From the NCBI GenBank assembly GCA_027603065.1, contig JADGJP010000029.1, positions 280,375-344,374 of the forward strand: a DNA stretch of 64,000 nt. Reading direction: 5' to 3'. How positions within the stretch are numbered: the stretch's first letter is position 1; each line of letters opens with the position of its first letter. Made by a program: the position numbers and the translations under genes. A model generated the notes under the pieces. It ran no database searches, was not told where the DNA came from, and worked only from the letters and a program-made list of their open reading frames with translations. The DNA comes from Geranomyces variabilis. Its lineage: Eukaryota > Chytridiomycota > Chytridiomycetes > Spizellomycetales > Powellomycetaceae. Below are positions 55,341 to 61,502 of this stretch, in pieces.

Positions 55341-56502
55341 TCACTTGTACACAATGTCGTGCATCTTGAAAACGACACTATAGCGATGATCCCCGGTCCC
55401 CTTCTGCCCCATGTGCTCAAGAGCACAGGAGCGGATGAATAAGATGTCACCAGGAACAAACGGGATCCTGGTCTTTAGCTGCGGTAAACAAAACTTGCCG
55501 CCCTGAAAGTCGCCAAGGCAAACAACGGCGCACCAGCCGTCGCCTTTGTCCTTGAGGTCGCGGTGCTTGGTAACAAACTCATTGATGACAATGACGATCA
55601 TTGCAAACGCGACTTGGAATGGGTTGCTGGACCAGAAATTCTTCTGTGCGTAGTGTTGCTTCTCGAATGCCGCGCGGTTTGCCTCGTAGCTATCCTTGTC
55701 AATGAGATGGAAGAGGAGCGTGATAAACAAGGTGATACGGTGCATGGCATTGGAGCCCAAGAATGTATAAAGTGCCGTGTTTCGAAAGACACTGCCTTTG
55801 CCAAACGACTCGCCCGAGATCTGAGGTGTCCAAGTCTCCTTTGGGCCAGGTTGTGTCTGCTGACCCCAGAATCCGATGTGAAGCGTGCCGTGTGGGTCAG
55901 GTTGACCAGGAAACTCAACATGGCATGCATCTGTGTCCGGTTGGGCCGGTGGGTACATGGTAATCAGCGTCGTGATTTCGCTATCCAGATCATCGTGGAT
56001 GTTGCGAAATTTGGCAAAGCTAGGAAAATAGACATAGAGCCGCTCGCCTGCAGCGTCAAGGCCTACAGCAATTTTATCTAAGAAAATTGGCGCAAAAAAA
56101 ACTTAGATATTGCAGACTTAGAAAGGCAGTCAGTCTCTACAACTTACCACCCGGGATTTCTGTGTCCACTTTGATGCCGTGGCGTATGTCAGCATCGTAT
56201 GCCTGCATGACGTCCTTGTTCGTCATGTTGTTGACTGTGTTTGGCTGGCACGCACGGCTTGCTGTCTTTAAGAATACGTGCATGTTGAAGTCGTCGTAGG
56301 TGCGAGGAACGTTCTTGTTGCAGAGTATCTTCCTGGCAAGGTTTACAGGGTGCCTGCGAATCCCGCGCTCAACCTGGTCTCTGTAATTGCTCAACTTGAA
56401 GGGAAAGCCCGCTTGATTGCACTGCTTGTGCCCCGCTTGATTGCACTGCTTGGGCTTCTGCTTCCGACCTTTCGTCTTGGCATGCTTTCCTTTTGTGGGC
56501 AT
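55341..56502 (-). CDS. TET/JBP-type 2OG-Fe(II) dioxygenase
   Basis: Exons 56502-56148 and 56077-55341, intron 70 nt; 363 aa (an in-frame ATG at 56658 could add 52 residues). N-terminus is Lys-rich with a tandem octapeptide (KQCNQAGH/KQCNQAGF). The catalytic core lies in the last 130 residues: the H-x-D iron motif in VTKHRDLKD, strand block VVCLGDFQGGKFCLPQL, PFVPGDILFIRS, distal iron His in CALEHMG and the 2OG Arg in DHRYSVVFKMHD. This order and the GDFxGG/PGD spacing match the TET/JBP family that oxidises 5-methylcytosine or thymine in DNA. In fungi such genes are expanded and linked to KDZ transposons. All key residues are present, so it may be active. Substrate is inferred. Confidence 0.82.
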
Positions 56503-56658
56503 GGTAAGTGTCGCCGAGCTTGCGAGGTTTGGCCATGGGGGGATGGGGAGGGGAACGGGGGAGGGAGGAGATTGAGGCAGACAATCTACCGTACGCGCTT
56601 GACACCGCTGTTCACTTCCCCTCCCCCAGAGCTGCATCCACTTCCCCCCTGCTGACAT

Positions 56659-57298
56659 CGCATCGCTAAACGTCTACCGCGGCCTCGTAGAGCTCATCCT
56701 CGCGGTTCTGAAATGGCCAGCGTTGAAGCGATACAATGTTTTTTGACTGAGTTACGAGGATTTTTGTGTTTCAAGGTGTTGCGATGCACATTATCCCCCC
56801 CTTTTTTTTATCCCCCCCTGAAATGTCATCCATTTGTTTTGGACAGAAAATGTGCGTTCACAGCCTGTGTAAAAAACACTGTTTTTTAAAAACCCACTTT
56901 TTGCGGGTCTCCATTTTGAAAGGAACTGAAAATAGGCCTTTGGCGTGTGCTACTTTTTTGGAGAACATCCTGCTCTTAAGTTAATGGAACTGTTTTTTGT
57001 GTGAATATTCCACTCTTATGTTAAAGATACTTTTTCGGAGATAACATTATGCAGTTAATTTAATGTTTGTGTTTTTGGAGATAACTTTTTGCAGTCACCT
57101 TAATGTTAATGTTTATGGAAGGAAAAATCGCGGTTTTGTCAAAAGCGGGTTTTTTTTGGGGCGGCTTAGCTGCAGGCTTGCTATTTTTGATGTCCATTTC
57201 ACCGGAATCAACACTTTTTTTTATATAGTCTATGTGGCAGGTATCAGAATTTGTTCACTATATACATTCCAGATCAAGACATCAGCTTGTCACTAAGC
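56659..57298. other. AT-rich stretch with ~40-bp degenerate direct repeats
   Basis: T-tract-rich, no gene. Near 57037 and 57077 the block ggagataac recurs with tgcagt and taatgtt following at the same distance (period 40); weaker copies lie just upstream. It sits at the 3' side of the decayed element and may be its terminal region. Confidence 0.5.
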
Positions 57299-57696
57299 TC
57301 AGTTGGAACTTTGGCCAGGTATACGTTCCAACATCATCTTGTCAGCTGACCCAGTCGACTTTTGAGATACCTCCAAGAACCGTTCGGGATCGGTCCTGAT
57401 GACCTCCCACATCCATTTCCTTCCAATCTCACCCATTTTCGGCATCAACTTTGGGGGCTTTGCATCACGATTTAGCCTAGCGTTGGGCCAAATGGTTTCC
57501 AGATTCTCTCCCTCCCGCTGCAGCAGATACAGTGCAAAAAACACCGTATATATGCCACAGTCACAAAAGTTTGACTGTTGCCAGGCCGCCTCTAAAATAT
57601 CGACGTTCTTCCATGCTCAAGATAGGCCGGTTTTTTTGTTTTTGTTACGACCATGTTCTGCCCAGCCGCCTGAGTCTAGACCTTTAAAAAAAAGTG

Positions 57697-57715
57697 AGCT
57701 ATGCGCCGCATAGCT
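57697..57715. repeat. Palindrome copy 1 (agctatgcg c cgcatagct)
   Basis: Perfect 9-bp arms around one central base, inside the predicted intron 57739-57616 of the element. Confidence 0.85.
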
Positions 57716-58023
57716 GAAACATTTGTGCGTGAGACATACCAAAGAGGTCTTCCAGCAGCCAGCCCATGTGCGCAAGAGCCTCAGTGTAGCGATTGTCTCC
57801 CCTGCCCTTCTTGATGGAGTCACAAATCAAATATCGCTGTTCTGAAGGCAAAAAGATCATCAGCCAAAAATGAGAAGACATATAGAAGGGCATTGCCACC
57901 TATTTTGTTGTAGGTCGTCGCAAGTCCATCTTCCGCTTCCAGGAAGAGCTTTCCACCGCTTGTCTCGAAAGGGCAATTGGCATCAAATTACAAGACTAAG
58001 ATTAGTAAAGGTTGCAGAGAGGT

Positions 58024-58130
58024 GCTATGCAGCGCATAGGCATCGGAACGTGGAGCTATGCGGCGCATAGTTCGCGCAAACACCTATGCGCCGCATAGCT
58101 TTCAAAAAAGGAGCTATGCGCCGCATAGCT
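58024..58130. repeat. Palindrome copies 2-5 in a regular cluster
   Basis: Copies at 58024-58039, 58054-58071, 58084-58100 and 58112-58130 with start-to-start spacing of 30, 30 and 28 bp. Core is ctatgcgNcgcatag (central base varies; the first copy has a one-base arm change, gcagcgc). They occupy the unresolved exon/intron boundary after the chromodomain. Confidence 0.85.
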
Positions 58131-58994
58131 CGCTTAAACTCCTTTGGCTCCCAAGTCGAGTCAGACGGTGGCCAGCCGGCCCACTTGACAAGGATCATGT
58201 CCTCAGCTTTTTCGTGGTTGAAGTACCGTGCAAGCATGCACTCCACTTCATAAACCTCGGCCACCGTGTTGTCGATGAGGTTTTTCAGCTGCTGCTCGGG
58301 GCAGTCTTTTGGTGGGCGCCCCAGGTACTGCTGGCCAAAAGAACGAGTAGACACCGCATTGGGAACATCAGCTTTGTTGGGCCCTTGCGTGAGCCATCGT
58401 ATCTTGAACTTGTCCTTGCTTCGCCCCTTGACAATCTTTCCAACTGCAACCCATCTCACTCTGCCCTTTGACCGGGCCTTCATGGCCTTCCTGGGGTTGG
58501 CCACAAGGACAGTGTCATCTGTCTGCAAGGTCAATGATGTCAGAAACCACCTCTGGGAGAGTCGGCCGTGCAATTCAGCAAATGAACCTTTAATGGGTGG
58601 ATCCGTTCAACCGGCATCTTCCTTGCTATCTTCTGTTTACAAAGGCTCCTCGCCACTGCCTTTGCGCCATAGAGCTCCATCTGCTCCCTAGCCTTGACTT
58701 GCATCTGCCGCCGCTTGTCCTCAGAAAAAATTTCTTCTGGTACCAGGGGCAACCCAGGAGAGCATCCCCAGTTGTTGTCCGTCTTGCCATAGAAATGCTC
58801 ATATGGCAAGAAGCCAGTGACGGTGTGTTGTTCGTGGTTGTACCGGTGGTGGATCTTCAAAATGGTGTTGCGGCACACATCAAACGGCGGCAATGAATGG
58901 TCCAGGTTGTAACCCTGCTCCTTCAGCAATTTTTGGAAGCGCCAATGAACTGTAAAATGCGACCGTTCAACAATTCCTGTAACAAAAACGGATG

Positions 58995-59049
58995 TTATGC
59001 GCCGCATAGCTCACTTGCACCTGCCCTCACACCTATGCGGCGCATAGCT
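58995..59049. repeat. Palindrome copies 6-7
   Basis: Cores at 58996-59011 and 59033-59049, both inside the predicted intron 59085-58977 that separates the two integrase exons. Confidence 0.85.
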
Positions 59050-59281
59050 CTCAAAAAATGAGGCTTTGTGAGCCAAACCTTATACCTTGGGTCTGAAGGT
59101 GATAAGGCTGCCCGTGCTTCCGCACAACGTAGTGAGCAATGTAAAGCTCAATTAAACTCTCGCCGATAAACTCTCCGCCGTTGTTAGCAAGGATTGTTTC
59201 CATCAGCAAAAATACACGACCTCTTTAGACCCCTAGAGAACTCCCAGGAGCTCCAAGTCAAAGTGACTTAGGCCATCACTA

Positions 59282-59476
59282 CAGTTATTGCAAGGGCCGT
59301 GCAAGCGATTTGCAAGCGATGCGCAAGGGCCGTGCAAGTGACTTGCAAGTGATGCGCAAGGGTCTAGCACGAGACACGCAAGCGACGTGCAAGTGGTGCG
59401 CAAGTGCTGGGCAAGTGATGCGCAAGGGTCTAGCACGAGACGCGCAAGCGACTTGCAAGGGACGGGCAAGTCAATT
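59282..59476. repeat. Minisatellite of ~11-12-bp units
   Basis: Imperfect tandem units of the form (g)tgcaagtgatgc / gcaagcgacttgc, with a longer repeated block caagggtctagcacgaga at two places. It abuts the truncated 5' end of the element and may mark the breakpoint. Confidence 0.8.
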
Positions 59477-59529
59477 ACGAAGATTGTATGTCTATATTAT
59501 CTATTGGCATCCGTATCTTTCAGATTACG

Positions 59530-59612
59530 TACGCCTTAGCCCGGCTAGCCGGGGCAAGTGTGTCCATGTTCATACGCCTAAGCCCGGCTAGCCGGGGCAA
59601 GTGTGTCCATGT
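59530..59612. repeat. Direct repeat, 2 x 40 bp, each with a 14-bp palindrome
   Basis: Units 59530-59569 and 59573-59612 (period 43) differ at one base. Each contains the perfect palindrome cccggctagccggg. They lie immediately past the stop codon of the unknown gene, in its presumed 3' UTR. Confidence 0.85.
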
Positions 59613-59618
59613 GCTGTT

Positions 59619-61374
59619 TCATTCGAATCCGTACTGATCCATATCATCCTCGGGGCAAGACATATCAATTGCGCTGGGTGCCGGCTGGTGCACGGCATTG
59701 AAGCTAAGCAGATAAAACTGCAATTCCGCCGCCAACCAGTCCGGATTGCTTTCGTGTTTGGCAATGACTTGACGATGGTATATCTGAAGGTCACGGTCAG
59801 TTGATGAACGTGGTGGAAATGACTGACGCACATAGAGAGCGAATACCTCGTAGGCGGCCTGCCAGGACTCCTTAGTTATGGACGCATTCGGAATCCGTGC
59901 TCCCGGCTTTGGGGTGGGAAAACCGGACTGAGCGCCACGCTCAATGAGCATGCCAAGCAATGCGGCGCCCATTGCCGGGACTGTCGTTGTTATATCCAGA
60001 TCAAGCGAATGACTGTAAGCCTTGTTGGTTCCTTTGAAGAACAGCGTGAAAATGAAGTGCCGGAGAATGGGTGATGACAGTTTCTCTGAACGCTATGAGC
60101 AAAAGGGTTAGTAGGCTCGGATGACAGACTTCCCACTAGATCTCAGCAGACTCACAATCCATCCGCCCGCGTTGTTAGACTTGACTGAGCCCCACAGCCA
60201 GCGTCTGGAAGCGAGAAGTTCGGTGCATACGTCCTGAATGCTTGACGAAGACTGAGCCTTAGTTATTCTGGGTATCGTCTCGCAAAGAAATATATGCGCT
60301 TTGGAAGTGAAATTGGAACAAATGTTTTCAAGATCCTTGCTGATCTATATCAACATCAACTTATACGTCAGACCGACAAAGAGGACAACCCTCCAGCCAA
60401 CATCCTCTCTTACCCTCATTGTGACGGTCTTCATATCAAGATCAAATCTCTTCATACCGGGATGCAGTCTCCGGCCAGCTGGGTCCATCTTCCATGCTTC
60501 CTTGACCCAAACGTTACGCATGAGACTGAGAACGAAGGGTTCCTCCATCAAGCAGCGGCGTTTGACGGCTTTGACAATGCGGTCCAAAACTTCTGAATTG
60601 CTGGATTCAGTTTCTTCACACTCCGAGCCATAATCCGTAAACCTTGTTTGCGCGCTTGAAGCCGATGACAGCACAGAGGATGAGCGGGACAGTCTCCCAT
60701 CTTGTAACTGATCCACTCGCCGGCCCCGGCGAGATGGTGAGTCTTGTGACTGATCCACTTGCCGGCAAGATGGTGAGTTAATCGCTTGCAGAATCCTGTG
60801 GTGACAGAATGTTAAGTTGTATGCAATTTCGGATGAAGACGGTGACCAAAAATGCTCACGATTCCAACCGCTCTTCTTGTTTTTCCATTTTGATATTTAG
60901 TGTGATCAGCAACAGCTTAAGCAGTATATAGCATAAGATAACATACCGGTTGACAAGCTTGCTGAGAAAGTGTTGAAGACCATTGTCGCGTACCCCATCA
61001 GAGAGTGTGCTGTCCGTTGAATAAACTGGAGCGTGGTCATTGTGATTCTGGACCGGGATATCAGAGACCCTCCGTTGCACCAGGAAGCCGGTTGCAAATT
61101 CTTGATTCTTGCGCCGTGCCTCCGCAGTTTTGTCAAAGCTCTTCCCGATGGGTGCGAGCTTGCGAGGCACCTTTCTGAAACAAGTGCAGGCAAATGAGAA
61201 ACGTCTAGTGGTTTACATAGCATTGTACTGCACATACCCTGTTGAGCGCTCATCCAAAAACCCATGATTACGCCACCGGGAATCGTTGGGGTTTTGGGAA
61301 TCAGAGTCGTCATTCTCAGCGAAGTCGTCTTCGGACGATCTTTCCTCAGAATCAGATTCGCTCAGCCCAGCCAT
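59619..61374 (-). CDS. Unknown protein, six-intron-phase-consistent gene between two mobile elements
   Basis: Exons 61374-61238, 61174-60947, 60795-60414, 60257-60156, 60092-59619; introns 63, 151, 156 and 63 nt; 440 aa. N-terminus is acidic (MAGLSESDSEERSSEDDF), then a basic linker, a Ser-rich segment with a short internal repeat (QSQDSPSRRGRR), and a helical C-terminal domain: VLDRIVKAVKRRCL, LASRRWLWGSVKSNNAGGW, LRHFIFTLFFKGTNKAYSHS, VPAMGAALLGMLIERGAQ and AAYEVFALYVRQSF. Layout recalls uncharacterised domains (DUF6532-like) expanded in mushroom-forming fungi; this is a weak impression. No stop or frameshift breaks it, in contrast to both flanking elements. Confidence 0.62.
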
Positions 61375-61502
61375 GGTCTTCCTTCTCTTGGTCCGGCCAT
61401 ACGTTGTATCTGCTGCTTCAACGGTGAGATTGTCCTCCCGCCGTTCCCAATCTCCGGGACTTACGGCAGCGACAGCAGCGGCTGCGGCTGTTACGGCTGC
61501 AT

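Follow-up and report, generated by a model that had tools for sequence, protein, structure and literature searches.

The stretch of DNA analyzed here, referred to as the window, is 64,000 nucleotides long (G000:C22:280375-344374) and belongs to a genome of 23.8 Mb in 91 contigs, for which all genome-wide counts given below come from pattern searches. Its compact genes with short introns would point to a fungus. Its minus strand contains a decayed transposon with integrase-like, chromodomain and Ulp1 protease parts, within which a short palindrome recurs. The features are the following:

56777..57010, minus strand: end region of the transposon, which starts TGTTGCGATG and has relatives elsewhere in the genome
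57297..57899, minus strand: Ulp1 protease region (PF02902, E 9.5e-5), two exons flanking a 58-nt intron; decayed, with one in-frame stop
57682..57739, minus strand: GT-AG intron of 58 nt in the Ulp1-protease frame, which continues on removal until the in-frame stop further on
57699..57713, no strand: palindrome copy 1, exact, inside the Ulp1 intron
58017..58137, minus strand: four-palindrome array, 121 nt, whose single strand folds as a long nested hairpin (z -7.71)
58025..58039, no strand: palindrome copy 2, one arm base altered, array
58056..58070, no strand: palindrome copy 3, exact, array
58084..58098, no strand: palindrome copy 4, exact, array
58114..58128, no strand: palindrome copy 5, exact, array
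58148..58549, minus strand: chromodomain exon (PF00385, E 9.3e-7)
58546..58976, minus strand: integrase-like exon, C-terminal part; sole match of a genome search with this exon is itself
58977..59085, minus strand: GT-AG intron of 109 nt in the integrase-like frame, whose removal joins two frames without a stop
58995..59009, no strand: palindrome copy 6, one arm base altered, integrase intron
59033..59047, no strand: palindrome copy 7, exact, integrase intron

The Ulp1 assignment was obtained with the two exons joined and an X placed at the stop (22.8 bits for PF02902 against a cut-off of 20.7). The integrase-like part matched no integrase family in Pfam, and we take this label from its motifs. 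Searching the genome with positions 57240-59230 yielded one further piece, on contig C34, which is 91% alike, covers 57240-57547 and contains no palindrome; in L022, from about position 1808, this C34 element end (91% alike) breaks off at sequence resembling the start of an LTR. Two relatives of the end at 56777 form an inverted pair at C10:288914-295946 (156 bp at 89%), enclosing an element that we take to be Copia-like; the flanks of this pair differ, although with the Copia-like element inside it, and no target duplication was found for the carrier. Ginger1 DNA transposons combine a DDE integrase domain with a C-terminal Ulp1 or OTU protease, and have long terminal inverted repeats of 40-270 bp starting TGTNR and a 4-bp CCGG/CCGT duplication (PMC2836005). 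The carrier element resembles Ginger1 in its C-terminal Ulp1 (PF02902) and may do so in its integrase-like part and in its ends, the long inverted pair on C10 having a TGTTG end and the window copy showing one end only; it differs by its chromodomain, and the families described in that source are from animals (PMC2836005). Other repeats lie nearby. A repeat of about 75 bp (56702-56777) adjoins the transposon end and takes 39 of the 46 matches of the terminal-region search, 11-bp units (TGCAAGTGATG-like; 14 overlapping matches, spacing mostly 11) occupy 59256-59490, directly before the integrase exon that is left, and two 40-nt repeats, 98% alike and each with a CCCGGCTAGCCGGG palindrome, adjoin the end of the neighboring frame (59530-59612).

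The palindrome that concerns us is CTATGCG-N-CGCATAG, in which two arms of seven bases, matching perfectly or almost so, enclose a single free center base. Between 57699 and 59047 it occurs seven times, with five exact copies and two in which one arm base is altered, all at the places read from the sequence alone and well above chance: with up to three mismatches allowed, the window contains 9 matches, whereas its shuffles average 2.7 and none of 100 reaches 9. The two extra matches (27411 and 61859) carry 3 mismatches apiece. The first impression of no further copy in the window stands, as does that of an even spacing of about 30 bp in the array, measured as 31, 28 and 30 bp. A search of the whole genome, proposed in the sequence-only reading, reveals a tiny family lying mostly in or beside introns. 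The exact 15-mer is found at 7 places (control 0), namely 5 in the window, C10:401900 and C67:703919, and the 13-bp core at 11 sites (control 1), distributed as 6 in the window, 2 on C10 and 1 each on C67, C15 (261282) and C57 (62643). Together with window copy 58025, whose core is altered, the family comprises 12 copies. Since about 1.4 chance matches to the core are expected from the base count, and the control gave 1, the copies on C15 and C57 may be chance matches.

When arm spacings of 0-12 are allowed, 8 sites are recovered (control 1), seven of them with a spacer of exactly one and the eighth, C45:805993, with a spacer of 3. Pairs of palindromes 10-40 bases apart occur in the genome only in the window (4 pairs, three overlapping in the array and one within the integrase intron) and on C10 (1 pair), with 0 in the control, and the palindromes at 57699 and on C67 are single copies with no adjacent partner. 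A 34-nt palindrome-bearing stretch is common to the array and the integrase intron (91% alike). Looser searches added little: a 17-mer with 3 mismatches matched 117 sites where its control matched 88, half-site pairs matched 5 against 4 with no new place, and patterns of a half-palindrome plus a T-run returned 3+9 and 12+6 rows against 2+3 and 6+2 for the controls, several rows being one place in shifted register. Nine of the twelve new places from the latter patterns were inspected (excluding C14, C26 and C29) and no clear decayed copy was seen among them; one of the nine, C7:159002, has a related palindrome, possibly within a minus-strand intron. A site with one arm base altered is also present at C17:313829. 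The Rfam scan of 56500-61500 gave nothing above cut-off.

The sequence-only reading had placed the palindromes exclusively in introns. This is too strong, because the C57 copy is probably exonic and the four array copies, out of seven in the window, may lie in exon or intron. What stands is that the reading frame supports the GT-AG introns around 57699 (Ulp1) and around 58995 and 59033 (integrase), that an intronic place is supported for the C10 pair too, and that the copies on C67 and C15 are probably intronic. Frame arguments of unequal strength would thus make seven of the twelve copies intronic, and the association with introns extends beyond the window. On C10 the pair lies downstream of a 64-residue exon, between two frames, and all 26 of the stop-free GT-AG solutions listed enclose both palindromes. 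A genome search with this exon found one other place, on C67 (48% over residues 4-49, E 6.4e-5). No member of this orphan gene family was found besides those on C10 and C67, and their exons gave no Pfam family above cut-off. The C67 palindrome is single and lies upstream of the family exon, on the side opposite to that on C10. Over the ranges covered there, a single GT-AG solution is free of stops (703855-703933) and it ends on the palindrome's own AG; alternatively an ATG within the palindrome could start the protein. Short MITE-like inverted repeats beginning AGCCAGTGGACAAAAGTC are present near both orphan gene copies (C10:401140-401230 and C67:703538-703630). The C15 palindrome lies shortly past a likely donor, in a gene that is presumably SRR1-like, and the C57 core is inside a 222-residue open frame, which we take to be that of an acyltransferase.

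In the array, the chromodomain frame is open through three of the four copies, with a stop inside the fourth, and the PF00385 match ends before the array even when the chromodomain frame is read on into it. Over the ranges covered, enumeration of GT-AG introns of 40-330 nt gave a sole stop-free junction with the Ulp1 frame; its donor, 58081, is weak, and two array copies would be left exonic. A coding reading of the palindrome (peptide MRRI) was considered and rejected: it is in the frame of the neighboring exon at several places, not in the Ulp1 intron, and the Pfam chromodomain match stops short of it.

We further compared the introns with each other. With the palindromes masked, the observed scores of the six pairs among four introns are reached by 11, 28, 88, 207, 249 and 264 of 300 shuffles, the C10 intron being drawn from one of several possible donors. 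The lowest figure, 11, is that of the Ulp1 intron against C10, a likeness that may be due to the T-run. Similarity between introns therefore seems restricted to the palindrome, with at most weak likeness beyond it. Direct repeats flanking ten copies, for unit lengths of 13-21, are at most 3 nt long (1 nt or less at the 15-mer edges), and those flanking multi-copy units measure 2 nt for the C10 pair and 0 for both the integrase pair and the array; the target-site duplications that the sequence-only reading had proposed to look for are thus absent above 3 nt.

The reading that we favor, which could as easily prove wrong as right, is that the palindrome is a very low-copy nuclear foldback repeat, working like the double-hairpin elements of mitochondria and surviving where it is spliced out. 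The unit would be the palindrome, often paired, beside a T-run on the transcribed strand; it may have spread by rare local duplication or insertion, would persist where splicing removes it, and would itself be selfish or neutral. This reading is consistent with the exactness of the sequence, the low copy number and the sites in or beside introns of both the decayed transposon and the two-member orphan family, as well as with the excess of exact 15-mers and cores over their controls and the prevalence of the one-base spacer. The 91% duplication of 34 nt, the restriction of pairs to the window and C10 and the little shared intron flank point the same way, and so does the presence of palindromes in both C10 and C67, although only two members of this family were found and these are 48% alike. 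Against it stand the C57 core in a long open frame, the four window copies not proven intronic, the lack of a filled and empty site pair for any palindrome found together with target duplications of 3 nt or less, and a copy number so low that it is unlike that of a successful selfish repeat.

In the double-hairpin elements (DHE) of Allomyces, as their name says, two hairpins stand together. The adjacent pairs in the window and on C10 have this same double-hairpin arrangement, despite the singles at 57699 and on C67. Mitochondrial palindromic repeats include, besides the Allomyces DHE, the palindromic microsatellites of Fusarium and the PstI palindromes of Neurospora, and their mobility was argued from optional presence (PMC7218506). 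The likeness to these lies in the tiny size of the palindromes; here, in contrast, they are on contigs with nuclear protein-coding genes, in about a dozen copies of a single nearly fixed sequence. No nuclear case of this kind was found in the titles and abstract openings of part of the literature on introners, hairpin or palindromic repeats and Ginger elements. If the intron link holds in relatives, the foldback repeat would represent, in the nucleus and tied to introns, what double-hairpin repeats are in organelles, and it would offer a case, if a small one, for testing how the introns of selfish genes acquire structure; at present it is a well-defined curiosity of a dozen copies.

A splicing role for the palindrome is possible from the sequence, and could take the form of an RNA-structure element whose hairpins bracket a T-tract, join branch point and 3' splice site or supply the acceptor AG, which we consider unlikely. 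On the transcribed strand, seven of ten copies (sharing five separate runs) have at least five consecutive T no more than 15 nt away and none of the ten an equivalent run of A, and the C67 solution ends with the AG of the palindrome; however, T-tracts near acceptors are a normal feature of introns, a start at the ATG is another reading of C67, and few genes of the genome carry the palindrome. Of five stretches folded, three exceed their shuffles in stability (array, z -7.71; C10, -4.47; integrase intron, -2.23), whereas the Ulp1 intron (-0.94) and C67 (-0.56) fold ordinarily; since any two palindromes pair by default, a strong fold does not demonstrate selection.

A shared foreign origin of transposon and orphan genes, in a lineage where the palindrome is common, is decidedly unlikely. 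Protein searches with the exons of carrier genes gave no relative (0 of 4, 2 and 1 candidates passed), each has zero or one paralogue within the genome and the orphan exons are without a Pfam family, but such a search is limited to relatives of similar length that have exact 5-residue words in common. Among viral contigs and prokaryote genomes no donor was found: paired copies were seen in 0 viral contigs and in 1 prokaryotic stretch (Prevotella), and the 19-mer in 0 viral contigs.

That the repeat creates or colonizes introns had also been suggested. Colonization is plausible; creation finds no support, given similarity limited to the palindrome and target duplications of 3 nt or less, and the one hint in its favor is the homologous Ulp1 frame at 467 kb on C10, which aligns without a gap across the position of the 58-nt intron (19 of 55 residues identical) and is open there. 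As this homolog is intronless at the site, the Ulp1 intron was either gained in the window copy or lost on C10. A second Ulp1-like frame lies on the minus strand of L014 (718-1351), beside a broken Copia-like frame near the contig end. An introner-like process, in which new introns arise as copies of the hairpin-bearing intron itself, would fit the intronless homolog and the palindromes on opposite sides of the exon shared by C10 and C67, and hairpin introners have been described (PMC7789003, PMC8469720). We nevertheless regard it as very doubtful, the masked introns being at most weakly alike and the intronless Ulp1 frame on C10 explicable equally by loss there. Introners are defined as introns alike nearly to both splice sites, in families of at least four with paralogous genes excluded (PMC9860276); here the six masked pairs share little flank, and the set consists of two introns of the transposon, those of a pair of paralogues and perhaps that of a single host gene, alike in the palindrome alone. 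Likewise, the target-site duplication at unit edges that marks MITEs or other TIR transposons is absent beyond 3 nt at the ten copies. The hairpin introner elements of Amoebophrya also have inverted repeats of 8-20 nt within introns, able to fold exon ends together, but they occupy many introns and have direct repeats of 3-5 nt at their boundaries, whereas here the likeness is confined to the palindrome (PMC7789003). The symmetrical stwintrons of Hypoxylaceae share inverted repeats, a 10-nt palindrome and edges without tandem duplications, but there whole introns are alike, with 45-55-nt terminal repeats (PMC8469720).

A binding array for a putative host or transposon protein is highly improbable: it would suit the spacing of the array and the nearly invariant arms with a free center base across 11 copies (partly circular, since the arms themselves served to find the copies beyond the window), but the places of the palindrome vary between loci, those of the window lie 0.9-2.3 kb from the known end of the element, and the core is present at five genome loci at most. 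Least credible of all is a portable 3'-splice-site cassette of palindrome and T-tract, which on landing in sense orientation would supply both pyrimidine tract and acceptor AG; were it true, selfish genes could have parts of their coding DNA made intronic by tiny palindromes.
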